NCBI GenBank assembly: GCA_018389105.1
Contig: JACATO010000631.1
Span: 992,001 to 1,056,000 of the forward strand
Reading direction: 5' to 3'
Origin: Nautilus pompilius
Lineage: Eukaryota; Mollusca; Cephalopoda; Nautilida; Nautilidae
Length of the DNA: 64,000 nucleotides
The notes beneath the pieces are model-generated. The model made no database searches, was not told where the DNA came from, and saw only the letters and a list, made by a program, of their open reading frames with translations. The position numbers were made by a program, and so were the translations under genes. Positions 5,564 to 63,255 of the stretch are shown in pieces (position 1 is the stretch's first letter; every line of letters starts with the position of its first letter).

Positions 5564-5565
5564 CA

Positions 5566-6353: not shown

Positions 6354-6355
6354 TA

Positions 6356-32499: not shown

Positions 32500-33480
32500 A
32501 AAAAAACTCCCCACTTCCGTATTGGTCTCAAACTTTCCCCGTGTCGGACTCATTCTCACTCGGAATCCAGCCGGACGGGCCCGACCCCCAGAAACTGCAA
32601 CCGGAAACCCCAGCAGGAGCTTAAACGAAGATCCGACGCCTGACAGCGGCTCTGTCTCCTCCCTACCCCAGTCTGGAACAGACCGCGGAGTGTCCGGAGC
32701 AGGGACTTCTGGGATTGATGGATGGATGGCGAGACAACAAAAAACCCGCAGCAGGTGAGAGCTTAGCGACTCCCCCCGTTGTGTCCGCTCGTGAGACGGG
32801 GACTGATGCTTCCCGGGAGTGGGGTCGGGGAATAAGCGGTTTTTGCTTTCAGCGGGGCGGGTGGGGTTTAAGAAGGGAATCTGGGGGGTGGGCAGGGATC
32901 CCCTCCCCTCCCGCTGCTGGCGGTGGTGGGTGGACGTAGTAACCCTTCCCCTCCCTAAACACCCTGGCCGGCTAATTAACCCCCCACCCCACCCCCAACC
33001 AGCTCCGCTTCATTCTGAATCGAATTTAACTGAATTCCCTGCCGGCGAACGGCTTGATTCATCTAGTTGTTCGGCTGCGCGGACTGGAGGTGTCAGCGCA
33101 CCCCGATCCCGTCTCAGTCAGGAGGAGGTTTCTGGAAATTTGGATGGTATGCGAACAACACGTGCGCTGGCGAGCGTGTCCCCGAATTCCTGTAACTGTC
33201 GCTGCGTGCGGGCCCCCAGCGCCGATACCCGGCTAGCTTCGCGTCAGGGTGGGGGCCCCTCTCCTCTCCCTCCCCCTGTCGTTACCATCCTAACTCCTTT
33301 ATAACTGGTTGGAGACTTAGCGGCCGGCCGGGGGTGGGGTCGTCTTCCTCCCTCTACCTGCTCGGTTCTTTGTGCAGCAGACGAAAAGCAAACAAAAACG
33401 CGAAAGAGGTGGAGACCGATCGATGAGAGAGAGCCAGGGATGATGCTTCGATGGGAATCTGGCTGGAAAATGGAATCGCC
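32500..33480 (+). promoter_or_regulatory. CpG-island promoter of the zinc-finger gene
   Basis: About 1 kb of GC- and CpG-rich DNA in otherwise CpG-poor surroundings. It has an inverted CCAAT box (ATTGG at 32521-32525) and an Sp1-type GGGGCGGG at 32854-32861, and no TATA box was noticed. The position, just upstream of the zinc-finger coding exon and on its strand, supports a promoter role. Open frames inside it on both strands are by-products of high GC. Confidence 0.75.
32718..32754 (+). other. Possible 5' UTR exon end with three upstream ATGs
   Basis: CAG|GTGAGA at 32755 is a good donor. Possible acceptors before the coding exon are CCCCACAG ending 33676 and TTTCTAACTTTAG ending 33797. ATGs at 32718, 32722 and 32726 precede the donor. 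Joining the 32726 frame to either acceptor runs into a stop before 33876, so these would be upstream ORFs, not an N-terminal extension. Confidence 0.4.
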
Positions 33481-33875
33481 GTAATGCAGCAGCAGCAGCG
33501 GTGTTTGATTTGTAGCCGAAAGCGATCTGATGTTGTTGTTTTTTTTTTGTCGCACCTGCTCTCACCTTTTACCGTCACCCCAAGAACGTTGTGGTTTCCC
33601 GCAGCTCCTATGGTTATTAGTCTCTTTAAATGAATTTTTCGTTGTTGTATTCATTTGTGCTCTTTTTGCCCCACAGATACTTTTCTCTCAATTTTTGGGG
33701 GTGGTGGAAATGCTCCCTAAGTTAAAAAAAAACGTGTAACTCTTTTGAGTTATTATTAGTTAATTTGTGTTTTCTTCTTTTCTATTTCTAACTTTAGTTT
33801 TCTTTTACAAACGATGTAAGAAGATCTGAATTTCACCGAAGGGAAAAGGGGAAAAAAAAAAAATTTACTGGCTTC

Positions 33876-34892
33876 ATGGATCAACGAGACGTAGAAAATG
33901 ATAAACAGAATGATTTGCTTCCGCAGCGAAGTCGAAAAGGTGGAAAGAAAGAGGGTAGGTATACTGCGCAGCAACATCAGCATATTGTGGGCACAAGTGG
34001 TCACAGTAGTGTCGGTTGTCAGAAGAAAGATACAGATGGTGGTAATGAAAAGAAAGAGAGGAGAAATGCTGATGGGTGTCTCGTGGAGCAGCAGAATGTA
34101 AAAGGGAGAAGAAGTGTTGTTGATGATGAGAATGAAGAAGAAGATGATGATGATGATGACAGTGACTATGATCTTGATATATATCCTGTGCAGGAGAAGA
34201 TTTCAAAATCTAGTGAAAACCAAACTGTAGAAAAAGCTTTCAAATGTGAGTTCTGCGACAAATCGTTTTCTCACAACAGTCACTATTTGCGCCACACGAG
34301 GACTCACACTGGCGAGAGACCTTTCAAGTGCAGTGTATGTGGGAGCACCTTCTTGCAAAACATTCACCTCACTCGTCACATGCGGATGCACAGTGGAGAG
34401 CGTCCATATATCTGCAAACACTGCGGAAAGTCATTTGCTCGGAATGGCATCCTCACTCGGCACATCCGCATCCATAGTGGCGAGAAGCCATACAAGTGTG
34501 AGTACTGTGGGAAAACCTTTTCAGTGAATGGTAATCTTTCGCGGCATGTGAAGATCCATCTGGAAAAGAAGCTGGACGATACAGAAGGGTCATGCTCTCT
34601 GTTTGATTATCCAACAATTGCAAAGAAAATCACTTACAAGTGCAAGCACTGCAACCAGATGTTCATCTCAAGTGAAAACCTTCGGCTGCACATGCACCTA
34701 CACCCAGAGGTGAAGTCTGAGAAGTTTGATTGTAAAGATGTTCCATACCCTGACATTGATAATATAATTAATGAACTTCCTGCAGTTAATAGTGACAAGT
34801 CGCTGTGTCGTTTTGAATGCTGTGGCAATGTATACACATCTGTTAGTGCTTTTGATGCTCATGCACTAACACATGATGAGGAATTTAACTGA
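33876..34892 (+). CDS. C2H2 zinc-finger protein, 338 residues, single coding exon
   Basis: Start chosen at 33876 because an in-frame TAG lies at 33795-33797, with no ATG between. Residues 1-30 are polar with a basic stretch (QRSRKGGKKEGR, possible nuclear signal). Residues 82-100 form an acidic run (DDENEEEDDDDDDSDYD). Four canonical fingers in tandem follow at 122-144, 150-172, 178-200 and 206-228, with TGERPF / SGERPY / SGEKPY linkers. A lone fifth finger lies at 254-276 (YKCKHCNQMF). A degenerate sixth lies at about 311-333 with C-x4-C spacing. Family knowledge: tandem fingers with such linkers bind DNA in the nucleus; the acidic part may contact other proteins. There is no KRAB, SCAN or BTB domain. 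AATAAA at 35423-35428 is a possible poly(A) signal. The target genes are unknown. Confidence 0.92.
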   Translation: MDQRDVENDKQNDLLPQRSRKGGKKEGRYTAQQHQHIVGTSGHSSVGCQKKDTDGGNEKKERRNADGCLVEQQNVKGRRSVVDDENEEEDDDDDDSDYDLDIYPVQEKISKSSENQTVEKAFKCEFCDKSFSHNSHYLRHTRTHTGERPFKCSVCGSTFLQNIHLTRHMRMHSGERPYICKHCGKSFARNGILTRHIRIHSGEKPYKCEYCGKTFSVNGNLSRHVKIHLEKKLDDTEGSCSLFDYPTIAKKITYKCKHCNQMFISSENLRLHMHLHPEVKSEKFDCKDVPYPDIDNIINELPAVNSDKSLCRFECCGNVYTSVSAFDAHALTHDEEFN

Positions 34893-37489
34893 AATATGAT
34901 ATATCTGGCATTTGTATTTGTTTATGGTACCCCCCAGTATCCTAAAAGGTTTTATTTTATTTATTTTTGTTTTTGTGCTTTCCAAGAAAGAATTGACAAG
35001 TTCAGTATATGTTTATGTTTAGAAAATGTTAAAAAATTGAAAAGCTTTTGTAATAGAATCTTAGTCAAACTGCCACTATGCCAAGGAACTTTTTTTTAAA
35101 AATTGTATTGATTTTTAAAAAAAAAAAATCAAGCAGATTGATTTAGCTTTTTTTAAATTTTCTTATAGCACAACCATTAAATAGGATGACCTAGGAATTA
35201 TCTGTTTATTCACCTTTCAGAATACAGGTAAATTTAATTTAACCTATGTATCAACCTAGCTGTATCAATTTGGCTGCAAGAGAAACGTGTGATTGAACCT
35301 TGTTAGTAAGACCATGTCAAATGATTTTATAATATCCTCAAAATGTTTTGGAGAAGTCATCTGACACACTATGGCCCATTTACTCCTTCAGTGCACACTA
35401 AATCACAGGTTTTCTCCTGTTGAATAAAATCTCTCTACCCCATCCAGAGTATCTGCAAAAGCAGCGAGTCCCCTTTCTAAACCTGTTTGCAGCTGTACCT
35501 CTCTAACTTGTCATAAGAATGTGGAAACCACATGAAAGACTTACATAAACATCATAAATTGCATGCATTATTTTTTTTTCAAAGAAATATGTGATTCCTT
35601 TGTTTGAATTTTTTTCTTTATTTGACACCTTTTTTTTATTTATCCAGAGGAGCTCGCTCTCTTATTGGAAATGGCTTTATACAGTACGACCGGAACGGAG
35701 TCATGGTAGTCAGTTTTCTTTAGGATGAAAGTAAATATTAGTTCACATTCATCATGATGTGAAAACATTGGTATTTTTATACTGTTGGGAAATCCAGAAG
35801 TGTTAAGGTCCATTTTAGGAGCACATTCAACATTATTGGTGATTAAAGTGAAGATATTGTATGGTTTATTTTTATAATGGAAAAGCAGAAATAATGCATT
35901 CACCAAAAAAAAAAAAAAAACAAAACAAAACAAAAAAACTGTTGAGTTATTGCTTAAGTCTAACATTTTAATTCTGTTTTGATTTTCAGATTACATTAAG
36001 CAATAATAAATGAATATTTTAGCATTTTGGGGGGGAAACCATCCAGAGAAAATGAAAATTGTATTAATGAATGACCCCTTATTGGACTCCTTCAGGGGAG
36101 CTAACTACAGTATTATGTAAAATTAATACACAAATTTATATAAAAAAGAACTTTTTTTAAAAAAAAAAAATTGTTTTGCTATTGTGACATGAACATTATT
36201 AGCATCACCACTTTTCATGTATCCTATGCATTTTTGGGGTATAAAGTATTAAATGGATACTGATAATTTTACCTTAAGGGGCTTACATGAAATTACGGCT
36301 ACCAAACACTGGTCATTAAGGGTCATTAAACTTTATTTATGTTGGTGATAAATTGCATCAGCATAATTAAAATGAAGGATTTTTTAGAAAAATGTCATGT
36401 ACACAGATAATATTCAAGCTTAAATTAACAATTTCCTTGTTCTGATTAAGTGTTCTCAGAAATGTTGACTCTTCTTTTTAAATATTGGAAGACACCTAAG
36501 ATGCAGAAAAAAAACTACCTAGTCTCTGATTATGTACAGCAAAAAAAATTTGTAAAACTTCCTATTTACACGATTTCCTATTCTTTATGTAGGAAAATAA
36601 GTGCATGCAATAATTATTTATGAAGTATTTCTCTCAGTCACCATGCATCTTGATTAGCAGTACTTGTTTTTTGTTGTAAAATAATTCATATGTTTGCAGA
36701 GATGTCCTTTTACAGAATCTGAGAAACTGACTTGTTACCTGCCTCTCTCACATCAAGTTCTTAGCTGTACATGCTTATTTTATCAAAGATTCAATGAAAG
36801 TACCTCTTTGCTTACTCATTGGTAATTTATAGTCTGTTTTTTAAAATGTTTTGATTTTAAAACTTAATGTACAGGCGTACATTCCTAGCCACTGATTTTT
36901 ACTTTATAAAAATAGATTATTGTATTCATTCATTGAGCATTGTTTGCTGTATTCAGATGCTATTTATGACCCTACAAGCTTGATAAATATATACATATTT
37001 GAGATTCTATTGCTGGTGGTGATAATCAAAAAGAATGTAATATCCATGAGACTTGCACATTCTTGCTGAAAAAACTACTGGAAAGTGTATTTTAAGCTCT
37101 CTATAAAATAGCATCTTGAAAGACTGTTAACAGTCCTTATTAGAACACCCCTTATATTATATTGTATCTTGACATTCTTACAAGAGATGCTGTTTTAATG
37201 GGCTGACTACCTTAAGGAATGTCTTCTAATGTAGACCAAATACCTTTTTTCTCTCCTTTGTTAGAACCAGTCTGCAGAAAACCTTGTTTTAGTATAGTCC
37301 GTGCATTTGGAAAAAACCTTCATCGATCAGTTTTAGGTTACTATCTAATCTCTTAAATGTAAAATAAAGAAAAAAATTTTAATTATTGGGGATTTGACTT
37401 TAATAAAAGTGATATTTCAGGAGTCTTTGGCATACACTACAAATTGTCAGCCCCTTTTTCTGTAAACCATATGTATATCTACATAGTAG
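34893..37489 (+). other. Probable long 3' UTR and downstream CpG-poor sequence
   Basis: AT-rich with many T/A runs and no coding frame of note. AATAAA occurs at 35423 and later. CpG stays scarce through here to about 42 kb, which would fit transcription through it, but this is inference. Confidence 0.4.
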
Positions 37490-38591
37490 CTGGCCACATA
37501 ATTAGAACTTATGTACCACAGACTTGGGCTTTACCTGAGTTGCAGATACATATTTTACTGCTTGATGTGGCAGGTGATTTCCCGTGATACAATTCGTGAC
37601 TTTGACAAATTTGCAGCCATTCTTACAGATATGGGGAAAAGGCAGCAAAGACATTACAGAATTTGAAAGGTATGGTGAGTGCATGTCAAGCAAGTGCTTC
37701 ATTGGCCAAGATAGTTTTGCTGGTAGGCTTCTCCAAAACACCTGTCATTCGATTTTATTAGCAATGACAAAAGCTGATAAAAATGTCTGCTGTGAGAAGG
37801 AATGGTGGCTGCAATCATCACATAGTGACAGAAAGTGGAAAAAAGGTAGTTAAAGAGGATAATTTAGTCCAACTGTCATTGAGAAGTAGACTAGCAGACA
37901 TGCAAGGAAATTCACACCATCTTCAGCTGTAACCTGCAACAAAAAAAAAATTGTAATCAATTAGTCGTAGCAGCAGGGGGACAATTGCATGAACCACTGA
38001 TTACAGTTGTCAACATGAGAAGATGCCTCGTGGTAAGGAATGCAGACTGGACTAAGGAGAACTGGTACAATGTGATTAGTCTGTAGTCAGACAAAGTCAC
38101 TTCGACCCCCCCTTTTTTTTTGTTGCACAGATAGAAGACAGATCTAGAGAAAGCCTCATGAATCAGCAGCTCCAACTGTCCTGGTCTTTGGTAGTGGAGC
38201 CATGTTTTGTTGGTAAAACTGTCTTCTCGTTTCCTTTAGAAACCATTAAACATTAAAACTTAGTTGACGACCATTTCTGATTATACACACCCAGCGATGC
38301 TCCATGTATACACTGATGGTGGTGGCTACTTCCAGGACGGCAGGGCTCCTATGCAAAATGCTCACATTGTGTGTTCATGTTTTGAGGAACATGATGGGGT
38401 CTTTGAGTATCTTCCCTGACCAGAACAATCCCCAGGATCTAGATCCAACTGAGCATCTGTGGAATGAATTTGAAAGACTCATTTGCCATCACAATTTTGT
38501 CTGCCTTGCTGCATGCATCACATACAACACCTGGATATTTGAGTAAATGGCGCAGTCTGTTATTGAACAGAGGTCCTAATAAAGTGGCCAG
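37490..38591 (+). mobile_element. Decayed Tc1-like element
   Basis: The ends are inverted: CTGGCCACATAATTAGAACT at the left and, reversed, CTGGCCACTTTATTAGGACC at the right. Near 38430-38480 the plus strand reads DLDPTEHLWNEFERL, the Tc1 third-motif region with its Glu. Other parts of the transposase are not readable. Length (1.1 kb) and stops show a dead copy. Confidence 0.75.
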
Positions 38592-40176
38592 TCACCAATG
38601 TGCGCACATGTAATCTGCCTTGAGATTATTTTATAGATATTTGAGAAACTATTATATTAACCATTTCTATTTATTTTTCCAATCGAATGTGTCTTGAGAA
38701 TATTTGATTATAAAAAGACTGCATTTTTAGCTGACCTGAAAAATACTTGATTCAATTGCTGTAATGTTGGCTAATAAAATTTAGCCTCAAAGGATTTTCT
38801 TATGTACAAGTGTAAAATGCTGATCTTTCAGCTGATACCAGAATCCCGAGTTTTCAGCATTGTAAAAACAAAATGAGATTACATATAGGGCTGCTTCGAA
38901 TGGGAATATCAGCATTGTTATCTGCATTATTATCTGTATGCTGTCATAAACACACAATAAAGTAAAAATAATCATTAAGTGATTCATAAAAAAAAAAAAA
39001 ACTTTAAACAAGTAAAAGATTATCCATGTAAAGTTACCATCCGACTTTTACAATTGGAGTTATCTCCCTTGACATGTAATGAACATTTCAAATGAAAAAT
39101 GTTTTACCAATTTTTTTTTTCCTGCTAAAGACAGTAATAATTTTATTTTTTTAAAATATGTATTACATCTGCTTCATCAAAGCACCTCTACCTTGGTCTA
39201 GGTTTTCTACTAAGCGTAATATCAGGCAGCATGGAATATATTCTTACCATCCTAGGGAGTTGGTAAGGCCTCTCTCTCTCTCTATTGGACTGCCCTGAAA
39301 ATGCTGAAGATGGCTGTAGCTCTAATCCACTGTTTGCATAGTCAAGATCTAGAAGGTCTTTCCTGGGTACAGTTGGTACTGGCAGACATCAGGATGGAGA
39401 GCAGCAGGGCTGCGGTAGCTTGGTTAGGTCTGATTTTGCATCTCCAATTTGTTTAATGCTTCAACTTTTAAATTTGTTATTTTTGGAGAGGGGAGTTTGA
39501 ATGCCCAATACATACAAAAATTGGTGCCAATTACAATTTATTAAAGTGGTTAAAAATGACAACACTGACTTGTGAACAGCATTGAAATAAAAAAAAACAA
39601 CCAAGCAACAAAAGTGTTTAGACCTCTCCATTCTACTGTGGAACTGTCACATTACATTAAGGGACTAGGTCACCTGACTGAACTCCACCTTATGAATAAT
39701 TATAACACAAGCTTCGTTAGACCATTTAAAATCTCCGGGTTATGAAAGAAAAGAACAAATGAAAAAATTTAATACATTTAATTTACTATGATATTGCATA
39801 TAACTTTTGTGATTTGCTAAAATGGTAACTAAAGTGCCTTGATATAAAATTAATAATTATGCAAACACTTGCCTTCCCTGCTCTTGACTGATTTTACTTA
39901 TATGTTTAAGGCTGTTCTTGGAATGAAACCCAGATTCCAGATACATTACAGCAAATCTATTTCAGCTGGTATTCCTCTGAACATCTTTCTGAAAGTTGAA
40001 TCTTTTCAGAATTTGCATAAAATACAGTAGAATATACATATATTACAGAATAATCATGTATACTTTTGCTAAAAAAGGAAACAATTTTGTAAAAATGATC
40101 ATTTGCCATGACCACTTTCACTATACATTTTTTGATGTGTGAAATATTATTGTCCCATACCTTTACTTTATAAAGT
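38592..40176. other. AT-rich sequence without recognised feature
   Basis: A short (CT)n run near 39271 and A-runs. No gene or repeat was identified. Confidence 0.4.
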
Positions 40177-41044
40177 TTCATCATCATAGATTGTTCATCC
40201 CATATTTGGGGTCTTGTCATAACTTGTATTAAAGTTACATAAATTCTCTTCTGGAGATATGTCTTGTTTACGTAGAACACCAACTGGCTGGCTATTTTGT
40301 CTAGAACTGAGCCTAATTAGCTTGTTACACACAGCCAGTTATTTTCCTACAGTTTCCTGTTTTCCAGCAACAACTGAGCTACAACTTGAGCAGTATGTGT
40401 ATTAAAAACCTAAGTAATAATAATTTGATCATTATTTCAGTTGTAACCTTTAACTCAAGCAAAGCACAAATGATGTGCGATTTCAGAGAAGTTTCAGTGG
40501 ACAGCAATGTGAAAATATAGGTTCTCTTCAACATTTGGTTGCAAAGATCAGGCTGCATGTAATTATGAGATATTAACCCTTTGAAGATCAAAAGGGTAGT
40601 TTTCAGACACAGTGAAGCATGGGTTGTAAGGTTTATTGCTGATGTTAAAACTGGATGCAGGAACTTTTTATATAATTTTGGAAGTTGTGATAAAAGCTCT
40701 GTGTATGTGTTGTTTGGCTCTCTTTCATAAACCATGATGGGATAAACCTGAAAAATCAGCAACACTGCATTTTATTCACTAATAATCCTAAAAAGAACGT
40801 GAAATTAATGAATAAAATTAGGATTGGAGAATTAGTGCAAAACCTATTGAAAGGTTCCCTCCCCAATTTCTTTCAGTTTATTAATTTTTCCATTGTCAAA
40901 AAAATAAAATTATCTAGTGAAGTGTAGTAAATGCAACTTTACCGGTAGCTTCTAATCCGAAATTCTCAACTGATGTAATTGTTCCTGGCAGTCTGTAGCA
41001 GAGAAGATTATCAGCTATGTTAAGTCTCTCACTTGCAGTGGGAG
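40177..41044. repeat. Unclassified 0.85-kb repeat, copy A
   Basis: Nearly identical, in the same direction, to 62253-63081. The match starts at TTCATCATCATAG and stops at CTTGCAGTGGGAG, with small indels. One is a 7-bp TTTCCTG duplication in B; another is about 50 bp present only in A near 40960. A minus-strand frame (40379-40765, 128 codons) has the near-identical C-terminal counterpart 62461-62820 in copy B, but the middle differs by an indel-caused frame change, which argues against coding. No inverted ends or target duplication were found. Confidence 0.85.
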
Positions 41045-44000
41045 TTCAATTATTCTGAAATATTGATCTGCCACTTTCTAAAATAAAAAAGAGTGATATA
41101 TGTAAAACAATCTGATTGATTCAACTTTAGTATTCCAAACCAGGGTTTCAAGAAGTCCATTATTTTCTAGATAGGCATTGAGTTTTGCAGTGTCCTTTGG
41201 ATTATTATCTTTTTGCAGAAAAAAACCAGTCACCTATCATGATGTCTTTATGGAAATGCATGGTATTATAATAGTGATATCTCACTGTGACAATTCTAAT
41301 TTTTATCAAGTTATTAGCCAAATAACCAGAGAAAGCAAAACATACTTTCACATTTCTATCACAATGCTTAAACATAGGCACAGGCAGTTCTTGTGCTTTT
41401 CCCAAGCCTTTCTCTTGTTATGCTATTTTTGCTGAACCAGATATTTTAGATGTTATCCATTCACAATACATTTCATCATTGATCCCAGATGAAGTTTTGA
41501 TGTTTAGCTTAGTCAAATCACATTTTTTGTGTTACCACATCTGGTGCTTTCTAGCTACTACTTAACCAATCCAACCGTTTAGCCATGATTTGGTTAGAGA
41601 AATTGAGATACTAAATGTTGCAGAAAAATTATGGCCAATAGTTTAATTAGCTACCTCTTAAGAAGAGATTTGTTTTTGGACTTTTGAACCAGGAACCTGT
41701 CTTCCTATTTCATGATTTTCTCTTTCCATCTCAGTCCTATAAGTTCATGGCTGAAGCAATTCATTCTATAATTGGTTGTTGACATACCATCCAGCATAAC
41801 TCAAACATTTCCACAAATTCTTAAGAAACCACTTTCACGATGGGCAATAACAAATCAAAACGTTGTTTTATATAAACATCTGTGTTTGGATATCAATTTT
41901 TTCTGTCAAATGGCAATAGCAGTCAGGAATGATGAGGTGCCTCATCATTTATGCAAAGGTATGCATAAGATAATTCATGTGAGTAGCAGGAGGGGGGAAC
42001 ACTGGATGAATGCATTAACATGCTTTTGGTACGAACTAAATTCAACATTCATAGATAACTGACTGGATCCATATTTATGCAAAAATCCTGAAGTGATTCT
42101 AACACATGGTTTGTGTTGAATTTTAATGTGTTTTCATTTGGTGTACTAGTAATTTTGATTCGCTGTGTACACACTAAATAAACCGGTAAATGTAGGGCAA
42201 AAGCACAGAAGAGCCTCAGCTTTCTAAAGCTGTAAAAAAAAATACCAAACTTGAATATTTTGAGGTTTCAGCTGGCAGAATGAAGGAGAAATGCTTTTGT
42301 CACAACAGCCAGTGGGGCACTTATAAGCTAGGGGTTAAAAAAATATTATATATATGTGTGTGTGTGTGTGTGAGTGGCTTATAATATTGTTTAAAACGAT
42401 ATATCTAAAAATATACTGTACAACAATTGATATTGTAGTGTGCGATTCAAGGGAAATAACTCTAACGTGGAATAAGAAAGGAATTAAACTTCCTGAACAC
42501 TGGTATGGTTCGCATCCCGCGAGTATGAAAAAAAATTAACTTTTTTTTTTTTAAATACGTGGTTAAATTTTGTAAAACGTTCACAGTTCATGTTGTTTTG
42601 TTATGCGCTCAAACAAATGTCTGGCGCATGTATCTCGTCGGAGCCAGTGAGTTGCATTCGTGTTTTATTAGCCAATCGATGAACAGTTGGGAAACTTGTC
42701 GGGGACCGCTCTACCAATGTTCTGGTATGTCGTAATCCGGTAACCTTAACGATGCTGCCTCTGGTTAATTTTTTTATAACCCTGATGTTGAAACTATTTA
42801 TTAATTTGAAAAACAAGTTATATATATTCTTTAAGTATAGCAATTTTGAACAGCATGGATAACGACATGACAAAAAAAGTCCTACAGCGTAATATTTTGT
42901 GTATATCATTTGATGTATGAAATAACTTTAGGTTTCGGTTCAGGTAGATAACTATCACGATTATCGTCCAGGTGTACGTTCAGGTTCGTGAAGTTCGCGT
43001 GTGCAACTGAAAGGGGGGGATGGGATAAGAGGAAATCTGATGTCCAACGTTGCTCTCAAAGTGAGAAACAGGTGTTCTGTGGTTTTAAAATGGCTTTGCT
43101 GACCCCTAAACAATTAGAAGTTTCCCAAAGTAGACATTTTAACATCTGCTACAGCCTGCAAATGTATATTGAAAATAGATAATTAAATGTCGTGAAAAAT
43201 GTAACACTTACAGCATCTTCTTTACTATTCATGGAGAAGCACAATAGGATGGAGGTTGTTAAAGTCAAAATGAATTTTGTTACGAATAAAATCATTGCGA
43301 TTACAGAGGCAGTTTCCATTTGCTAATCATTTATCTGGAATTAAAGAATTAACATAATCATAATAATAATAATAATGATAATAAATCTTTAAAACAGTAG
43401 AAGTGTGTTCTTAGTAACAGACATTAAAAACGTCAATACAACAAAAATGAATTTGCCGTGCTGAGAAATGCGGAGCCGCCTTTGCATTTTAGAATGAGAA
43501 GAGAATTTAAAAGGGAAATGTAGGCGGTAACTCGAGACAGGTATCGCAGAAAGTGGCGAGACGGCTGACATCTGTTAGTCAGATCGGTCGCGCCGCCAGG
43601 GAGGCTGTTCTGTAAAATTGTAATGGCGACAGATTAACCGGGCGAACTGCTAAAAGTCGGGACCCGAAAGCGACAAATGGGAATTCCCACTCCCTGTCTC
43701 GAAGCGCCGGGGGCTCCGCCGGTCACAGGGAATCACGTTGTTTAGAACTTTTCACCTGTCTGTTTCAGCTTTCGCATGAAAAATTCTATTTTTAGTAACG
43801 ATAACTGTTCCACTAATAAGATGATGATGGGAAGTACCCGAACTAATCTATTCTCTGTAAACAACGCAGCGGAACTGGTCATCATCAGGTGTACGGGCAC
43901 TTTAATGATTCCCACTATTACCTGGAATCGAGGTCACATCCCACCGTGAAAACCGCTAGAATCTGGAAACTGCAGGTTTCTAAATTTACTATATCCTGAG

Positions 44001-46338
44001 ACCCGATATCCGTTATAATCATTTTAAATTAAATATAAAATAAAAAAACAACAACAACAAATTGCCGATTAATCACAGACTTTTTAAAATTCAATTAAAT
44101 ATTCAAAGAATCATGACTCCGCTATTTTCGGAGCGAGACGAAATTGATGCCAAGATGAAGATGAGAAACGGGAAAACAACTCAACTCTTGAAGCAAAATA
44201 CCTTTTTATCGCTTCATGACCCCTGGCTAGTTGTCGAGCTCCTTTAACTTTTGCAGTGTTTGGCTCTGAGACAAGGTCTGCGATAGTAAACCTACTCAAT
44301 GGATAACAGAGGGTCAGGAACTGAGTCCGAGAAGTTTCTAGGGATACGTCCTTCCTTCCGCACGATAAACGGTTCTGTGGTAATATAAAACTTGCTCTCC
44401 CCCCAACCAGCCTCCTGTCTGTGCCACTACGTGGAATGGCACCAGAAATGAAATTTATATATAGGTAACAACTCACGATTGCGCGAAAAAGGTCCAGTAT
44501 GTTTTAAAAATCTGAATGGATTAAAAGCACCAATAAGGGCCATACTAGGGCTGTCTGATTTTAAATTCCAATATTTCTCTAGCTTCGAGACGGCACATCT
44601 CTTATCGTATTCATAAAATACAGCCTTGCACACACCTGCATTAAAATTTTCAGCAATTTTCTTATTTTTCTGCTAGGATTAATAGGTTGCTGTCCCCTTT
44701 TACTGTACATTCTTCTTCTAGAAACCCCTCCCCCATGCCTGTTTCCAAGGTAACGCGAAGCATGTGGTAAGTTGAGGCTAAACTCCCGAACATCTCTCTG
44801 AGTCGATGTTAGTCGTACAACTGCCGTCTCGTGTCACTGTAAATAAAAGTATCAGGGAACTAGAGAGCATTTCTAGCCAACCATACTTTTTCTGTAATTG
44901 TAGCCATGAAAACTGACAGTGTCAGGTACCCCGGGACTTCCAGAATAATCCAAGAGATGTTTATCATCAGCAATGAAAATTTCTGGAAAATAAGTAAATA
45001 GACTTACAAGGAGATTTTTTTTCAAAGACGAGTGTAAAGTGTAAATGAAGGAACAATGTGATCCAGTCAGGAAGCAATGGCGTATGAACTTACAATACGG
45101 GGATCTGTCTTGGCAAAAAAAAGGGGGGCAGGGAGCCATGAAGGGTTACGCTTGTACACATCAATGCCTTTACCCGAATATCTGTCTGGTTCTTTAATTC
45201 TTGCCAGGAATGCTCAAGAATAATCAGTTTTGAATTCGCTGACCGCGCAATTCTAGCTGGTAGTCCATGTGACTTGCTCTGAGCCATAAAACCCGTCTCG
45301 TTAGACTAATAAAATAATCGTCTGATCTTATATATATATATATATATGTGTTTTTAATAGATTTCGTCGATTTTATGTTTCAATGAAGCCTCCCTGGCCA
45401 AGACGTGACCTGGTTTAAACATTTTCCCCTGTCCTTTGTAAACGAAAAATGATAAGTGGCTCAGATACGTAACCAAACCGAGTTATCATTATTTCAGGTA
45501 AGTAATTATTCACAGTACATTACCGGTTAGTAAAATAATCAGCTAAAGTGCTTCATAGCTTTCGTGCGAGTCTCCTTAAGAACATGAGCACCGTGGCTGT
45601 GATTCTCTGGTGGAGTTCTCCCTCGGTGCCCACTCGCATTCGCCAGACCTTCACCCGCTCCACTCCATCTTGGAGTCCGGCTTCGATTGTGCGACCACTT
45701 CACAAAGATAATTAATTACCTGAGTCTGCGCTATTTTCATTTTACCTGGTTGATCTTGGACTTTCCTTTTGCCATTCTAATCGAGACCTTTTGAGAAAAC
45801 CGTTCTTTCTTATAAGATCAGCACTCATTGTTTCGCTTAATGAAGTCACCCGATGCTAAGAGAGTCATCACGGCTAAAACTGTAGCAGATAATAATAATA
45901 ACAATAAAAACACGTTGCTTCCTTCTAACTTGCTCAACTCCCCTAATTATCTTGCAATTAATTATTTTTTTTTTTTTAAAAAATCTATTTCTTTCCGTAA
46001 TTTATCTCTGACTGAACAAGCCGTAGGTATTTCTCTGCGAACCTGCACAAGGTCCGCCAGACTGGAAAAGAAAGGGACATAACTTCTGAGGACCGCTAGT
46101 TAAACAATGGCGGATTAAACGACCTCCAGGCGTCGACAGTTTTGAAATAGTACCCTAACTTTTGAACCGAGAGTAAAATATTCTTTATGGAATTTGGGGT
46201 GTGGGTCTCGTCTTTGCATACTCACTGATGAATGCACAGTTTTGAGAAGTATCTCGCACCGTCTCCCTTCAGGAAGAAAACCCTTTCAAAGATGATCTAA
46301 TCAAATATTCGCAAGTTTGGTGCGAAGTGTTAAATTCA
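41045..46338. other. Non-coding sequence containing the CpG transition
   Basis: CpG is sparse to about 41.8 kb and becomes common after about 42.1-42.5 kb. Short TG (42351-42372) and AT (45332-45347) repeats occur. No gene was recognised; frames at 42601-42909 and 44111-44476 (minus) have no family resemblance I know. Confidence 0.4.
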
Positions 46339-46358
46339 CATCATCATCATCATCATCA

Positions 46359-46451
<93 letters not shown>

Positions 46452-46481
46452 TATTATTATTATTGTTGTTGTTTGTTGTTG

Positions 46482-46560
<79 letters not shown>

Positions 46561-46562
46561 CA
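46339..46562. repeat. Long compound trinucleotide microsatellite (ATC/ATT/GTT)
   Basis: About 224 bp of CAT, then ATT, a short GTT island, and ATT again. The apparent poly-Ile, Leu or Tyr frames over it are artefacts. Confidence 0.95.
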
Positions 46563-47480
46563 GAAAACCCTGTGGTTTACTTACTAACCTTGGTCCGTCC
46601 GTAAGCGAATGGCGGCTGAGTATAGCAGAGGGTGAAAACTCTTAATAAAAAACCCTGCAAATAAAATAGTCAAAAGATGATTTATCTCCATTTTAAGGAA
46701 TATAAGAAAAAAAATAAACAATTAACTATTTTGTAGAATAGATTTCGTACATCCAGACGAAAGTTATAGAAACAGATTTAAAGGATCACGGGGAAGATAT
46801 TAAATTCTGGTTTCTAACTTTCCCAATGTATTATATAATTTTTAAAAAGCTGTAATTAGCGATGCACTATTCTGTCTGCTGGGCAGATGAAGTGTTATTA
46901 AGTCTTTTAATTTATTTCTATAATTTGTATCGCTACTGCGTATAATATAGCAAGGGTATTCAAATTTTCTTCATTAAAGATGTAAAACGTCATTAAATAA
47001 ATAAATGCATACATATCCCGAAAAAGTCCAGCTCGGTTTGGTGGCTAGCACACTGGCTGGCCAGGTGAGTTTGGTCGTACACCGGAAAAATGTAAATCCT
47101 AGTATCGTGGTAGGGGTCACGACGATCAAGCCAACAAATGCATCCATTCCGTTAATTAATTCAAAGCAGTTTATCCTTGTATTTGCATATTTATTCTCTG
47201 CGTAAGCATTCGTGCCACAAAGGCTGATTTTTTTGTGTGTGTTTTACGAGAACGGTTATTCTGTCACCTCTGTTACCTATACCTTTTAATATTTGTTGTA
47301 ATATTGCCTTCTATAGTGGCGTGTTACTGAGCTTTGTCTCTTTCTTCCGCACATAACGGTACGACTTTTTCAAAAGGCAACAGATGGTTATCCCTGCCCA
47401 TTAAAACTGAGAATGCACGAACGGTGTAGCACTTCTGTAAATTATCTACGAGTATTTCTGCACCCTGTTACTACACCTCT
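46563..47480. other. Sequence without recognised feature
   Basis: No coding, repeat or RNA signal was seen. Confidence 0.4.
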
Positions 47481-48040
47481 GACCACTTCTAACTCTCCGC
47501 TCGTGAACAGTAGTCCACACCTGTCTTCATGACCTATAAGGTCACACCTGTGACCACTTCTAACTCTCCGCTCGTGAACAGTAGTCCACACCTGTCTTCA
47601 TGACCTATAAAGTCACACCTGTGACCACTTCTAACTCTCCGCTCGTGAACAGTAGTCCACACCTGTCTTCATGACCTATAAAGTCACACCTGTGACCACT
47701 TCTAACTCTCCGCTCGTGAACAGTAGTCCACACCTGTCTTCATGACCTATAAGGTCACACCTGTGACCACTTCTAACTCTCCGCTCGTGAACAGTAGTCC
47801 ACACCTGTCTTCATGACCTATAAAGTCACACCTGTGACCACTTCTAACTCTCCGCTCGTGAACAGTAGTCCACACCTGTCTTCATGACCTATAAGGTCAC
47901 ACCTGTGACCACTTCTAACTCTCCGCTCGTGAACAGTAGTCCACACCTGTCTTCATGACTTATAAGGTCACACCTGTGACCACTTCTAACTCTCCGCTCG
48001 TGAACAGTAGTCCACACCTGTCTTCATGACTTATAAGGTC
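47481..48040. repeat. 71-bp minisatellite, eight copies
   Basis: Units begin GACCACTTCTAACTCTCCGC at 47481, 47552, 47623, 47694, 47765, 47836, 47907 and 47978; the last is slightly short. Units differ by only one or two bases (AAGG/AAAG, GACCTAT/GACTTAT). Each junction carries the palindrome GTCACA-CC-TGTGAC, and each full unit has two CACCTG hexamers. Confidence 0.95.
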
Positions 48041-50459
48041 TTTCTCACATTAAATTAGACTCTATTAAGAAAAATAAAAAAAAAAGAATTCTAAGGCGAT
48101 TCAAAAATTTTTGGACGCGGCTGCACTAAACACGCTCTACAGGCGGGCTCCCTTAACGCTACAGCAGGTGGGTAAACAGTCTTAGCCTAACAGAATTGTA
48201 CATCTAATGAATAGAAAGCACTAAAACCGTTTTTTTAAAAAAAAACAACAAAAAACACACACTTACTCTGGACTTACGAAGAAATAGACTAAAAAGATAT
48301 TTTGATCAGCTGCAACATAAATTTACAAAAAAAGAAAGGTCAGGTGTATAGATATTTTCCCAGCCTGGCATATACCTAGACGAACGTAAGTCAGGGCTGC
48401 TCCATCGGAGAATCCACAAACAAGCGCACGTGCCACAGTTCTCTACTATTGGGAAGTAAAACCGTGACCCTGTACTGACAGTTGGCTTGTTTTTTCTTCT
48501 GTTACGCTAGAAATGTCTAAAAATGAATATGGGGGAGGGAGGGATTTCACATTTACAGTATCTAATTTATCTATCATCATCATCATCACTCGTCATTCCG
48601 GGTGGTCGACAGTCCTGGATCATCATCCACGACCCGAGAAAGACAAGGGGGGGGGAGCACTCTCGTGGTAGGTCCTCCTCCACCTTAATCCTTCCATGTC
48701 CGTGTGAAAACCCGAAGGTCCTCTTTTAACTCTCTCCTTTCAGATGCGATAGGAAAATTGAGTGCCCAGATTATAATCCGCTTGGCCGACCGATAAAGAA
48801 GAACGAAAAGAAACCAGGCCAGGAATCATCGACGCTAACGAAGTTTGACCCTGCGAGACATCATCTATTAGATGTGTGAAATAAGCAAATGGTGTCGGTT
48901 TCCTTTGTGGTCGGGATTTTCCAAAAGATCCTCCAGAACGTTTACACGGGCGCAAACTTCTCTCGTAGTCAAAGGTTACGTATAAATATAGGCCTTTTAG
49001 AGAGTCTGGCTAATTCGGAGGTCCAGTGGTTAAAATAAACTTGAGACAAAGGCTCCGTTACTTTAATGAACACCAAAGAAGCGAATACGAACAATACCTT
49101 TTAACATCAAATGTCACCGATCTCATATAAAACAATCATTTAAACACCCTCATAGCGCTACTTTGAGGCCTGCCAGTTAATGTCTCAGGGATCTATTACC
49201 GAGGGTGAAGACGGCGGTGACGTGGAACCTGCAAAATCTTCTATCTCGGGAGAGTAGAAAAGGTGTTGACACTGGAGACTCGGCGCATCCGTGGTTTGTG
49301 GGCAGTCAGTCAGAGAGAGAGCGAGAGAGATGGCGGCTATCTGTACACATTATACACGTCCGAAAGCCCCTCAAGGTCCCCTGAAGTCAGAGATAAAGGT
49401 AAATTCGTTCCATACAGGTGTTCACGAACTTCCGTGTTTTTTTCGGCAACGAAGGAAGAAGAGAAATCGGTTGAAGAGCACGCACCAGGATCAGAAATCC
49501 GACGAAGATGAACATTTGATCTTTCACATTTTGGCTCTTGCAGGGGAGAATTGTGCGGAAATATAGCGCAGTGCCGTTAGAAGGGACGCGATTTAGATGC
49601 AGAAGCATCCCCAATTGCAGGAACACCCACGCTGCAGACGATGACGTCGAACGCCAAATTGGAGATGGAAACTCGATAAAAGCATTCCCCACGACAGCAG
49701 ACTGACAGCTTTGCCTGTTGTCTTCGCCTTTGTTCTTGACCATTATTATTTACTCTGCAAAAACGTGCAGAAATGAGAGAAGCCGCCTTTAAAAAAGACA
49801 GTCCAAACACCGTCTTCGGAAGATATTGTCTTTAAAGCGTAATCCATATCTGCTGCTTTGTCTTTGTCCGACAGTTTAAAATTTCTTTCCCAGATTGCAC
49901 CACTACAAAAAATACCACCACACACACACACACACACACACACCACACCCACCAAATGTAAAATCTTTAAATTATTTCCAGATGGTTCCAGAAACTAACT
50001 TCTGAGTCGGGGAAACATCCCAAAAGTGTTGCCTCATTCATTTTGTAAATAGAAACCAGTACAGTAATGGAAACTTTACAGAAGGTACCTTTCATGTATC
50101 TCTCCCCACTGGTGAAGTAGATGGGAAACACGGAAATGTAGTTTTAAAGGACGCCCCACCGTTGCTACACCCGATGAACATAGAGATCGGTAACTGACAG
50201 TTATTTCAGCTGAAGGAATTTCGCCGACTGAGATTAGAACGACGTGTGTGAGCGGACGCGAGCGCAGTCGGGCCCGAGTAAATCGTATGGAAAGTGTTAA
50301 TCCGAGAGAGGCCTGCTACAGCTGCTACTGGGACTGGTGCAGTGGCACGAGATGAGTTATGAGTCTCTTTGACTACCGATGACAGTGGATGCTCTAAACT
50401 TTGTTTAGTTCCAATCAGAGTGATTGCGCCTTTATGTTCTCCACACAGCGCAGACGTCC
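48041..50459. other. CpG-normal sequence without confirmed gene
   Basis: Near 48570-48720 a patch with GATGAT-type repeats on the minus strand may be the tail of an old retroposon, not classified. A (CA)n tract lies at about 49920-49942. A candidate first exon at 49330 is listed separately. Confidence 0.35.
49330..49398 (+). CDS. Candidate first coding exon (unconfirmed)
   Basis: A GA-rich leader runs into ATGGCGGC, a favourable start context. Twenty-three codons (MAAICTHYTRPKAPQGPLKS...) end at AAAG|GTAAAT, a fair donor. No partner exon with recognisable homology was found, and the peptide is not known to me. It may be chance in a CpG-richer patch. Confidence 0.2.
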
Positions 50460-50734
50460 GTCTAGTCCAGGGGTGGCCAAACCTGCTTAACGTAATAGAG
50501 CCACATACGATAAACTTCAGGTGTTTGAGAGCCGCAACACATGAAAAAATATTACAGACACGTTTTTACTCTTACATGCACATTTTGTTACAAAAATTTT
50601 ATATAAATATCAAGAAATACACGTGCGTAATAATATTTATTCGTGTATGTAATTTTTAAACTGATAATTTGTATTACTTTCAATAATAAAAAAGTACACA
50701 TCTACATACCAAATATTTTCAAAATACCGACTTA

Positions 50735-52531
50735 TTACACTGGTCAACAAGTATTTTTCATCAAGCATATGTCAAGGTGTATTTAGTGTAGTTTTTAATG
50801 CTGATTTCAAATATACAATTAGTTTTTTGACATCACGTACAGTTTTCAAGATGAGAAAGTTTTTTGGTTTTTTAGCTCATGCATTATATAGAAATTCCAA
50901 TTAATGACGACGTGTATGGATGTATTTCATTTACATCATGGAAACATACCTTTAAAATAAACTACATTATTCATTGCTGCATAATTCAGATGCAATATTT
51001 CATCATCTTAAATTAACCAATCAAGTTTTGTCTGATGAAATAGGTATTTCAACATCTCAAATTGTCCAGTCATAATTGGTCTGATGAAATATTTCATCAT
51101 CTCAAATTCAATATAAGTATAACCGTTGTATCTATTTCCTTACTTGTTTTACAGTGTTAACAATGTCAAGACAGTGTAGAATCCTCCTAATGTGTTTTGT
51201 TATGTCTGTGGACAATTTATTGTGAAAGCTCAAAAAGTACAATAACACCAGAGATCAAGAAGATTTATAAGCTATACTTTGACTGTCCTCTTGGAGATCA
51301 GGACAAGTTATGGGCACCACATTTTATCTGCTCAGCTTGCTCAAATGGCTTACGTGACTGGTTCAATAAGAGGAAGAAGTCTTGCCATTCCAATGATATG
51401 GAGGGAGCCGAAAGACCATGAGAATATGGAACTTTTACTTCATGCCATTGCCTATGAAAGATACTCATGGAAAACATGTGGAGATTTAAAAGTCATTAGA
51501 ATGTTAATGGGAATGCAGTCAGTTTCACAAAATACTGTTGTTTCTTGTGTCTATGGGATAGTCGGGCAACTGACAGACATTATTCGGAATCAAACTGGCA
51601 GACAAGAAACATCATACCAGCCAGGACTGTCTAGCGTCAAGAATACACCTCTTGTAGATCCATGTAATGTCCTATTGCCTCCTTTGCACATAAAGCTTGG
51701 ACTGATGAAACAGTTTGTAAAGACACTAGGGAAGAGAAATGCCAGAGGGGTTTGAGTATATTGTAGAAAAGTTACCCAAAATCACACAGGCGAAGTTGAA
51801 AGAGGGTATCTTTGTCGGACCCCCAATTAGAGAAGTACTCAAAGATGTCAACTTCAAGACAACACTGGATGAACTGGAACTGCCTGCCTGGAATGCTTTC
51901 AATTGGATCTGTGAGAATTTCTTGGGCAACAAGAAGGCAATGGACTACAAGGATGGCATCAAGAATCTTCTGAAATGCTACTCAGCAATGGGTTGTCGCA
52001 TGTCAGTGAAAGTTCACTTCTTGGACTCCCATCTGGATTTATTCGCAGATAACCTTGGAGCAGTGTCTGATGAACATGGTGAAAGATTTCACCAGGACAT
52101 TAGTGCTATGGAGAAACGGTACCAAGGCTTCTGGAATGACAGTATGCTGGCTGACTACTGCTGGACACTTATACCGTGATCAACCAGATCAGGAACACCG
52201 CAGGAAATCCAAATCACAATGTTTCTAACTCTGTTGTTCTAACTTTGTCTTTTTGTCTGGCCCATTTTTTGTGTATTCACTCTTTGTAGAATGATAGTGA
52301 TGATTTTTAACTCAATAAACTCATTTACTTTCTAAAAATAATATGTCCTTATTTATTACGTTAATGATTTCATATATACAAATATGTAAATATTTGCATG
52401 TATCTACTGAAAAACTGATACGTGCTGCATAAATGGGTGAAATTTTGAAATCAGCATGAAAAAATTAGTCTAAAAAAGTTGGTTTGCATTCATAATGAGT
52501 ATAATACATTTAATTTTGTTGACCAGTGTTA
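50735..52531 (+). mobile_element. CACTG-ended DNA transposon nested in the hAT element (copy 2 of the WREP family)
   Basis: Perfect 13-bp inverted ends, CACTGGTCAACAA at 50738-50750 and its complement at 52516-52528, flanked by TTA on both sides. The 1791-bp insert interrupts the hAT downstream of the hAT transposase stop. CACTG ends with 3-bp duplications are typical of the CMC group (CACTA, Mirage, Chapaev), which I infer as its class. It carries a decayed transposase-like gene on the plus strand. Confidence 0.88.
51190..52240 (+). pseudogene. Transposase-like gene of the WREP / HGERFHQDI family (copy 2), internally deleted
   Basis: It starts with CYVCGQFIVKAQK near 51198 and, after a frame change, WAPHFICSACSNGLRDW. 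Together these look like a C2-x-C2 zinc-binding head. SLAIPMIWREPKDH follows, then it jumps directly to YERYSWKTCGDLKVIRMLMG. Against copy 3, roughly the acidic spacer and following block are missing. After a frame shift it continues as LLPPLHIKLGLMKQFVKTLG, FVGPPIREVLKD, FLDSHLDLFADNLGAVSDEH and GERFHQDISAMEKRYQGFW, ending near ADYCW. At least two frame shifts make it inactive. Confidence 0.85.
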
Positions 52532-52544
52532 TCGTGAGTCTCTA

Positions 52545-54345
52545 TCTTGGCTGTGAGTCTTTGAAAATCCAGCTCAACTATGTTGTCAAGGCTGTACGAA
52601 TTAGCTCCGTCAGATGCTGATTTGTAAGGATCGCACGATGCTTCGACTTCACAAACTTCATAACAGAGTACAGTGATTCACAGCAGTATGTTGTGCTGAA
52701 AGTTGAGATGAGTCGCACACTGGTCTTCTTCAGTTCAGGATATTTCATTTCTGGAACTTGCTTCCAGAACTCAATTGTAGATTGGGATTTATGGGTCATC
52801 TCTAGATCCAGTCCTCCTGTAATTCCATTAGTTACATTTCCACAGCAGATGAATCTGTAGCAAGAGGGCCGAGAATTGGACAGCCATCCTTGATCACATC
52901 AACCATGAATGAATTTACAAGAAAGGCAAAGCAGGGCTTCAGCTTCAGCAAGTTCTCAAACCTGGCAAGGAAATTATCAAGCAGTCCTTGTATTCTTCCG
53001 GTTTGTGATCTTTTATTTCAATATCAGGGAATGTATTTACTCTCCTTTGGAGACTGGAAAAGTGATTGAAGTTTCTTGACAATTTGTCTCTTTGAAAAAC
53101 TCTTCTTTTATTCTGAAAGCTGAAAATTGTCCGAGTAAGATCAGAAACAATCCTATCCTTCCCTTGGAGTGCCAAGTTGAGAGTTTGTAGATGATTTATT
53201 ATATCAGTGAGGAACATTAGATCATGCATCCATTCCTCATTTTCTAGTTGAGGATAGAATCTTTCCTTTTCTACAAGAAAAGTAATAACAGGCTCCAACA
53301 GATCCAAAAACCTACTCAAGACATTGCTGGTTGGCAGCCACCTCACACTGTAGTAGAAAGAGACATCACTGGGTTTATCTTCAAGCTCCAGTTCGTCAAT
53401 AAAATTTTTGAACTGTCGGTGGGTCTTCCCATCTAAGCATATGTAATTGACAATTTCGAGGACAGATATCATAACATCTTCATACTTATAATATCTGGCT
53501 GCCAGGTGCTCACGATGAATAATGCAATGCACAGGAAGAAACTCTGAAAAACGGGGATCACTTTTCCTTAATCCTGCATTTCCCCCACCATTACAGGTGC
53601 TCCATCTGTTGCAACACTGACGAGTTTATCCAGTGGAACATCAGCACTTGTTAAGGCTCTTTCAAGCGAATTTTTAATGTCAACATCACGAGTTGTTTCT
53701 TTTATTGCGACTAAATCCAACATCTCTTCTTTCACAGTTACATCAGAGGAAAGATAACGAACAAATACGCCAGTTGTGGGTTGTCTTGTATGTCTGTAGA
53801 TTCGTCAAGAGCTTTAAGTCATTTTGCATTTTGCCTGCAATATCAGCACTGATCTGGGAGATACGCCTTTCTGTAGTGCGGCGTGAGACTGGTGTTCGTG
53901 CTATTAGTCGCTGAAGTTCTGTGTTGTTTGGATCTAACACTGCAACGACTTCAGCTACATCCTTCTTAACGAATTCGCCATCAGAATATGGGCGTTTAGC
54001 ACGAGCAATATTCCACGATATAACGAAAATAGCTTCATTCTTTGTATCGTCTTCCTTACTGAACGTTGCCAACAGTGTCTGCTGGCCATTTAGTGATGAT
54101 TTTAACACAGTTAACTTGTTTTTCCGTGGTTCTGATTTAGGTGGATAATCAGACGAAAAGTTCTTGTGATTTGTTTCTTAGTGGCGTTTTGAGTTACTGG
54201 CCTTGTAATGACTCAGCGACACATTGCAGATAAGACACACGGGGTTACCTCCCTTAACGGTGAACGCAAAATCTCCCTCCCACTCTGGCTTACAATTTCT
54301 GTTTTCATCTTCAAGCTTTCGCTTCTTACGATTTGATGACGCCAT
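52545..54345 (-). pseudogene. hAT transposase (GTF2IRD2 / SCAND3 / ZBED-type), decayed
   Basis: Minus-strand blocks in order: a start near 54345 with a Lys/Arg-rich N-terminus (SSNRKKRKLEDEN), then a Cys/His region near 54230 (BED-like). Next are FVISWNIARAKRPYSDGEFV near 53970-54030 and TTERRISQISADIAGKMQND near 53820-53880. Then come CIIHREHLAARYY and VNYICLDGKTHRQFKNFIDE at 53390-53530, VRWLPTSNVLSRFLDLLEPV near 53270-53345, and the C-terminal IEFWKQVPEMKYPELKKTSV and TTYCCESLYSVMKFVKSKHR at 52620-52770. Three frames are needed, with stops between. It lies within the 50.5-54.7 kb element, between its ends as expected. Confidence 0.88.
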
Positions 54346-54661
54346 CTTCGTTCACAAAATATTTCACAGGCACTTGTAACAAAATTAAAGTGAAAGGAAA
54401 CAATAAGCTCCAACACGAGGAACGCAACCAAACTCTACAGAGCCCAGAATCACACTAACACCCCGCTAATTCGACTGTCCGCAACACAGCCGCACACGCC
54501 ACAATCCACGCGATCGCAAGCCACGCCCACTAAAACTGCCATTGTGAGCACCGGCTCATACGATTCCTGTTTCAGCCAACATATTTCCGCGAGCCACACA
54601 TTATATATTAAAGAGCCGCATGTGGCCCGCGAGCCGCGGTTTGGCCACACTTGGTCTAATC

Positions 54662-55344: not shown

Positions 55345-55381
55345 AACTTAGAAACTGGCCCTGTGAACCAGTTTCTAAGTT
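55345..55381. repeat. Perfect 14-bp hairpin with 9-nt loop
   Basis: AACTTAGAAACTGG, loop CCCTGTGAA, then CCAGTTTCTAAGTT. It is too short for a typical pre-miRNA; it may be a MITE scar or a structured RNA element. Confidence 0.6.
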
Positions 55382-55475
55382 CTACAGTTGAAAATACGGC
55401 TAAAGTCTGCGTAATCATAAAAGGGCTCGCCAAGGCTGAAAGCCGGAAGCAGTTTCAAATTAATGCCATTCTAAA

Positions 55476-63081: not shown

Positions 63082-63255
63082 ATATTTTTGTTAAACATTG
63101 AACTGAAATCCAAGTTATAGATCCTGTTACAAACTCTACAACTCAAAAGGATGAAAGTCTGCTTCCTTATATAAATTATTCTTGCCGGACAGACCGCTCA
63201 ATTAAAGACAGATTAGCCGTCCCTGCCAACATTTACGTCCGGATCTTCTGAGCGG

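Follow-up and report, generated by a model that had tools for sequence, protein, structure and literature searches.

A CpG-poor block over three genes of Nautilus pompilius and its sharp downstream edge, a probable trace of mosaic germline methylation

The DNA analysed here (the window) is a stretch of 64,000 nucleotides of the cephalopod Nautilus pompilius (assembly GCA_018389105.1, contig JACATO010000631.1, hereafter C607, positions 992,001 to 1,056,000), crossed near 42.4 kb by a sharp step in the frequency of the CpG dinucleotide. Coordinates are window positions, negative values lying left of the window start, and with the surroundings that were read, 80 kb on the left side and 120 kb on the right, the region amounts to 264 kb. 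A preliminary description of the window had opposed a CpG-scarce left part to a CpG-rich right part, with a step near 42 kb. The step is present, the CpG observed/expected ratio (o/e) rising from 0.20 to 0.94 at 42,397, but the left-right division proved wrong: the step is one edge of a CpG-poor block that spans about 97 kb (about -54.4 to 42.4 kb) and is flanked left and right by CpG-rich DNA. The left flank is CpG-rich from -80.0 to -54.4 kb, the first 8 kb of the block (-54.4 to -46.4 kb) are mixed and mostly CpG-poor, and the DNA from -46.4 to 42.4 kb is CpG-poor except for two islands, at -5.73 to -3.14 kb and at 32.5 to 34.6 kb. To the right of the step, the DNA remains CpG-rich up to +184 kb at least, interrupted by poor patches of 0.5-4 kb. 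The second island had been described as ending at 33.5 kb and is longer than that, whereas the claim that CpG is common to the end of the window stands from 42,397 onwards with the exception of three poor patches (Table 1).

Three genes were recognised in the block, all on the plus strand: two SLC7 transporter genes in tandem (A and B) and one C2H2 zinc-finger gene. The N-terminal exon of gene A (-55.86 to -55.35 kb) still belongs to the CpG-rich DNA in front of the block, which begins about 1 kb past this first recognised exon; further exon matches, found by tblastn and paralogous to exons of gene B, are located at about -44.4, -37.6 and -18.4 kb. The first island ends within the N-terminal exon of gene B (-3.69 to -3.08 kb). 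The relatives of this gene in the PDB include the LAT, y+LAT, b0,+AT and xCT light chains, and the frame harbouring its last recognised exon matches AA_permease_2 with 19.3 bits, under the family cut-off of 27. As the zinc-finger frame starts in the second island, three of the three recognised genes start in CpG-rich DNA in the one block examined. Gene B and the zinc-finger frame fall in the poor block, which bears out the earlier placement of both window genes in CpG-poor DNA.

The block ends 7.5 kb past the stop codon of the zinc-finger frame. Pfam scans for a further gene after this frame, covering 34.6-38.5 kb on the plus strand and 38.4-43.2 kb on both strands, recognised none, their sole match, below the family cut-off, being to the tail of that frame; a Pfam scan of the minus strand of locus L015 gave no match. 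There are 28 AATAAA/ATTAAA sites in 34.9-43.5 kb, one of them at 42,177, which is uninformative in A+T-rich DNA. With regard to strand asymmetry, an excess of T extends from about -46 to 25 kb, with a z of 0.1 at 25.0-32.5 kb.

The CpG landscape was established with a 1-kb CpG profile and a two-state model of P(G|C), from which the o/e values of the step given above derive, and by a separate change-point test, which placed the change with a log-likelihood gain of 72.4 and gave a CpG o/e of 0.20 on the poor side and 0.97 on the rich side. Loss of CpG with a gain of TpG and CpA is the signature of deaminated 5-methylcytosine. On the poor side the o/e of TpG (equal to that of CpA) amounts to 1.29 compared with 1.02 on the rich side, the excess being confined to the poor side, while GpC, with 1.12 against 0.96, does not fall where CpG drops about fivefold. 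Taken together, these values correspond to the deamination signature and not to base composition. A pure composition effect without methylation could appeal to the lower G+C content left of the step (0.33, against 0.40 to the right). However, o/e corrects for composition, CpG and GpC behave differently, TpG/CpA increases, and in a sample of 20 loci from elsewhere in the genome, presented below, those with a G+C content of 0.34 fall in both o/e classes (three at 0.21-0.28, two at 0.87-0.96). We regard this explanation as having practically no probability and ruled it out on these grounds.

The sharpness of the step, together with the rise in G+C, might also be expected if the right part were a recent insertion, foreign DNA or an assembly join, too young to have decayed. 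When the genome (727,640,739 bases in 2,558 contigs) was searched with 42,300-44,300, no long match elsewhere was obtained, all 35 first-look candidates having been scored. Besides the query itself, 44 short pieces were found, of which 43 cover repeat-like tracts (query 39-84 and 1,038-1,109) and the remaining one spans 143 bases at 71%, so that a fresh repeat insertion at the edge is unlikely. Moreover, the CpG-rich DNA is extensive on the right and is found again to the left of the block, the two sides of the step share repeat families, and diverged mariner copies inside the rich DNA keep more of their CpGs. A foreign or newly inserted right part is thus scarcely credible, and was rejected because of the rich DNA on both sides of the block and the lack of a long match at the edge.

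Transposon copies provide a second line of evidence. The window contains two mariner copies, M2 in the poor block and M3 in the rich DNA, for which about eight CpG losses on the left against about two on the right had been claimed. The direction was correct and the numbers an undercount: over two aligned pieces, the losses are 20 to 5, compared with 11 to 10 for the GpC control. For the first piece the alignment spans 489 bases and so exceeds its BLAST match of 339 columns; the second alone gives 10 to 2 for CpG and 6 to 5 for GpC. Among four local mariner copies, the two in poor DNA have lost 70 of 95 CpGs and the two in rich DNA 34 of 106, with GpC losses of 33/106 and 37/115, respectively. 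Since these four copies are not independent, the test was replaced by one on 20 further copies. Two hit lists (with 40 candidates scored out of 4,125 and 40 out of 4,109, respectively) contributed ten each, which were hand-picked before their CpG content was seen, with 16 first picks kept and four replaced, and each copy was classified by the approximately 840 bases on its 3' side as having a poor (o/e <0.5) or a rich (o/e >=0.69) flank. The 12 copies with a poor flank have lost 100 of 181 CpGs, the eight with a rich flank 27 of 116 (Mann-Whitney p=0.0025; one-sided permutation p=0.00043), while the GpC control is flat (32/252 vs 26/167, p=0.44). The contrast is found within each hit list, with 34/60 vs 21/88 in the list resembling the rich window copy and 66/121 vs 6/28 in the other. 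Under variants of the column rule, p ranges from 0.0022 to 0.0053 in 9 of 12 settings; the other three, which keep only two columns, give p=0.26. Polarisation with other family members, proposed at the outset as a check, therefore shows that loss follows the flank of the insertion site. For this one family, CpG decay depends on location rather than on the repeat family, with two exceptions (L053 and L058) that are taken up below. Pairs from a DUF-like repeat family yielded very few informative differences, with CpG direction counts of 2:2 and 2:0.

The mariner contrast could in principle be one of subfamilies, the CpG-poor copies descending from a CpG-poor source instead of decaying at their sites, and the two local CpG-poor copies are indeed 87-89% alike, compared with 79-84% to the two CpG-rich ones. 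In a tree of 24 copies built with the CpG columns removed, however, the flank label requires 7 changes against a shuffled mean of 7.8-7.9, and 172-176 of 500 shuffles went as low as 7, so the labels are not clustered. The tree is weakly resolved, with 20 of 21 inner branches open and the bootstrap unsettled, and its result is to be read as absence of signal, not as proof. On this basis the simplest account is that the CpGs were lost after insertion, at the site; a subfamily effect was rejected as very improbable.

The 0.85-kb duplicate, with one copy on each side of the step, had been proposed as another clock, with at least five differences that are CpG in the right copy and TpG or CpA in the left one, and none in reverse. 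The counts are indeed 5 and 0, and the number of shared CpGs is three or four according to the end point chosen for the alignment. The direction thus agrees, but the pair is unusable alone and was set aside as an independent clock. No third copy was found among the 40 of 244 candidates scored in the genome; all 41 other matching pieces cover only query 1,136-1,974, which corresponds to an old repeat adjoining the left copy. In spite of its CpG-rich setting the right copy is CpG-poor as well, and was probably copied out of methylated DNA. Furthermore, the 15 mismatches of the pair are crowded, with seven in the first 116 bases, three in the remainder and five beside gaps (p=0.00016, the five gap-adjacent mismatches left out), which suggests gene conversion or a composite origin, the two sites lying 22 kb apart across the boundary. 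The pair agrees with methylation but carries little weight. The old repeat itself, at 41,136-41,974, stands between the left copy and the boundary, immediately before the latter. Most of its 41 further pieces, from the same 40 scored candidates, show 64-77% identity, and the six loci of it that were read (L003-L008) are all CpG-poor, with o/e values of 0.09-0.19.

To the right of the window, C607 carries a 26-kb tandem duplication (77,146-103,150 and 103,512-129,376; 98.3% identical) with open frames for DUF229 proteins, which means that the CpG-rich right side is not gene-free. Parts of the duplication recur inverted near 138.6-153.3 kb. Each copy contains a CpG-poor stretch with a CpG-rich patch inside it, and the patch of the first copy has a Transposase_1 match. 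Within the rich DNA of the duplication, CpG differences are not significantly more or less frequent than those at GpC (6/635; p=0.15), and the transposase-bearing patch inside the poor stretch shows 6 CpG differences in 75.

The two CpG classes are not peculiar to this locus. In a sample of 20 stretches of 2 kb, placed arbitrarily at round-number positions of 19 contigs, 13 have an o/e of 0.12-0.46 and seven of 0.77-1.13, with none between. Likewise, the 132 consecutive 2-kb bins of the 264-kb region are two-peaked, with none at 0.5-0.6. The genome also encodes candidate methylation machinery, detected as exon-level matches: DNMT1 exons on contig C649 (PF00145 at two places, one with internal stops, and DNMT1-RFD at two places; PDB match at 1.7e-38), SRA-domain exons on two contigs, and a DNMT3-type ADD exon (L071, contig C2302:64,159-64,257) whose 21 PDB matches are all DNMT3A, DNMT3B or DNMT3L.

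The features of the window are collected in Table 1. The patches at 50,928-53,617 and 57,711-59,607, which bear repeat-like frames, either arrived already depleted or belong to a repeat family that is itself methylated; the mariner copies in CpG-rich DNA, unlike them, are mostly not depleted. A 71-bp unit is repeated eight times head-to-tail at 47,473-48,040, within CpG-rich DNA, the units being 98% alike. A short Tc1-like element at 26,398-27,254 has inverted repeats 93-98% alike and a DDE_3 match, and its ends presumably resemble those of fish Tc1 elements. Rfam and tRNA scans of the window gave no match.

Table 1. Coordinates of genes, repeats and CpG classes within the 64,000-nucleotide window
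Feature	Position	Strand	Remarks
SLC7 light-chain-type amino-acid transporter gene B, coding exon match	12,794-12,919	+	PDB phmmer, frame-1 translation 932-973; paralogous gene A exon
SLC7 gene B, coding exon match	15,341-15,487	+	PDB phmmer, frame-1 translation 1781-1829; paralogous gene A exon
Open frame with last recognised SLC7 gene B exon match	24,209-24,733	+	exon match at 24,239-24,403
C2H2 zinc-finger open frame, last gene recognised in the block	33,798-34,892	+	starts in island 32,518-34,577
Mariner copy M2	5,565-6,368	-	in CpG-poor DNA, o/e 0.39; Mos1-type HTH_48 match
Mariner copy M3	60,149-61,405	-	in CpG-rich DNA, o/e 0.81; HTH_48 match
Left copy of 0.85-kb duplicate	40,177-41,070		o/e 0.19 over 40,177-40,944
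Right copy of 0.85-kb duplicate	62,253-63,105		o/e 0.38 over 62,253-63,040; CpG-poor inside CpG-rich DNA
CpG-poor DNA	1-32,517		o/e 0.19; SLC7 gene B and spacer behind it; part of block from about -54.4 kb
CpG-rich island	32,518-34,577		o/e 0.81-0.82; covers start of zinc-finger frame
CpG-poor DNA	34,582-42,378		o/e 0.20; island end to boundary
Boundary	41,820-42,511		95% set of change point, best 42,397
CpG-rich DNA	42,397-50,911		o/e 0.94
CpG-poor patch in rich side	50,928-53,617		TpG/CpA 1.36; coincides with repeat-like open frames
CpG-rich DNA	53,621-57,708		o/e 1.09
CpG-poor patch	57,711-59,607		over repeat-like 443-aa open frame, minus strand
CpG-rich DNA	59,609-62,346		o/e 0.90; contains right mariner copy M3
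CpG-poor patch in rich side	62,353-63,185		two-state model

With regard to the interpretation, the step at 42.4 kb is very probably the downstream edge of a germline-methylated block, within a mosaic, gene-associated pattern of methylation that is deduced here from CpG decay. The earlier claim that the left part is methylated in the germline is supported as far as sequence allows, by the step, the TpG/CpA excess and the polarised mariner losses. Within the block, most CpGs would have been methylated for a long time in the germline and have decayed to TpG or CpA, whereas those outside it would be unmethylated and so survive. The mark would be 5-methylcytosine in germ cells. Most probably, a DNMT3-type enzyme would be recruited by transcription-associated chromatin, and the mark would then be maintained in the germ line by DNMT1 together with an SRA partner. 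Promoters would be protected, and we propose that gene starts are kept free of methylation, for which reason each gene begins in CpG-rich DNA. The edge itself may correspond to the end of the transcription unit of the last gene, or of read-through from it.

Several observations weigh against this reading. The spacers at -18.4 to -5.7 kb (o/e 0.31) and 25.0-32.5 kb (0.13) are as depleted as the gene bodies: along the block, o/e amounts to 0.28 in gene A and 0.22 in gene B, gene ends being set by the last recognised exon, and to 0.20 after the zinc-finger frame. Intergenic DNA is CpG-rich outside the block, but not in the two spacers inside it; on simple gene-body methylation, such depletion is expected only if 3' ends are long or transcription reads through. 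It is the least expected feature of the locus. After the zinc-finger gene, at 34.6-42.4 kb, T/(T+A) is only 0.510 (z 1.4). The 20 mariner copies are not a random sample, since candidates were ranked in the hit lists by resemblance to those of the window, and they yield a modest rank correlation (-0.46, p=0.042). Moreover, L058 lost only 2 of 14 CpGs in spite of its poor flank and L053 lost 8 of 15 with a rich flank, which may reflect a recent arrival and a moved edge, respectively. In the 26-kb duplication, CpG transition differences number 2/35 in poor and 12/593 in rich DNA (p=0.18), and only the post hoc pooling of the poor stretch with its patch reaches 8/110 vs 12/587 (p=0.007). Finally, all 19 contigs of the 20-locus sample carry the old repeat found in CpG-poor DNA, by which they were known, so that the poor share may be overstated, while the two-class pattern is unaffected.

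The depleted spacers bring forward an alternative in which the block is a chromatin domain methylated independently of transcription, spreading through spacers and stopping at a fixed boundary element or chromatin edge near 42.4 kb. The equal depletion of spacers and gene bodies, with the promoter islands escaping, is what such a domain would produce, and 13 of 20 arbitrary loci being CpG-poor points the same way, subject to the possible bias of the sampled contigs. On the other hand, three genes in the same direction and a block starting about 1 kb after the first exon of gene A are as transcription-linked methylation would give, and the spacers could be transcribed as long 3' ends or by read-through. 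We therefore consider a transcription-independent domain possible, though rather unlikely, and retain gene-associated methylation as the best explanation.

The closest described system is found in the passages on Ciona intestinalis sperm of PMC3827831, where near-fully methylated and unmethylated domains with sharp boundaries lie over genes, methylation dips just upstream of the gene start, and the boundary is not tied to the stop codon. The Nautilus locus resembles it in its sharp-edged domain over genes, its spared starts and an edge away from the stop codon, these being deduced here from CpG decay. It differs in that methylation is reported to be depleted at gene ends in Ciona, whereas here the spacers between genes are depleted of CpG, and in that the two-gene domain described there concerns converging genes (PMC3827831), whereas the present block is common to three genes of one orientation. 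In Octopus bimaculoides, according to the parts of PMC9476566 consulted, methylation concerns the gene bodies of a subset of genes, transposons are largely untargeted, DNMT1 and UHRF1 were found, and less than 10% of CpGs are methylated. Nautilus is likewise a cephalopod with DNMT1, here with SRA exons too. Section 6 of the octopus paper, which lists DNMT1 and UHRF1 as found, gives no result for DNMT3, whereas a DNMT3-type ADD exon was found here. Compared with the low octopus value, 13 of 20 sampled loci are CpG-depleted; by a hand estimate from CpG densities, a depleted share of about 65% of the DNA would still contain no more than about a quarter of all CpGs, so that most of the genome could be methylated by length even where the percentage of methylated CpGs is low. 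In Nematostella, the pertinent part of PMC13345969 reports that transcription-associated chromatin predicts the restoration of gene-body methylation. The recruitment proposed above is taken from that work and is plausible here, although the Nematostella evidence is experimental and ours is sequence decay. Gastropods have mosaic methylation in the account of a review (PMC11050768, in the portion cited), and the present locus departs from the known mosaic kind, as sampled in these sources, by its single block over three same-direction genes and its depleted spacers.

No Nautilus methylome turned up in literature searches, the Nautilus genome paper (PMC8257504) uses none of the words 'methylation', 'DNMT' and 'CpG' in its main text, and a literature search on the CpG decay of transposon copies at their insertion sites found no paper. 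The locus fits an already known kind, the patchy methylation of invertebrates, here read from the assembled letters. We tentatively raise a broader possibility, itself unlikely on present evidence, that most of the DNA is methylated in the germline, in long domains that include several genes and run through the spacers, and that only promoters and separate unmethylated stretches are spared. If true, this would represent a state between the mosaic invertebrate and the global vertebrate pattern, in a cephalopod with a DNMT3-type gene, and standing transposon copies would record where edges stayed stable over the lifetimes of the copies. In any case, the depleted spacers and the DNMT3-type exon raise the question of what share of a shelled cephalopod genome is methylated compared with octopus. 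With many copies of a single transposon serving as location-dependent clocks, a germline methylation map can be deduced from an assembled genome, and the stability of methylation edges may perhaps be read by the same clocks.

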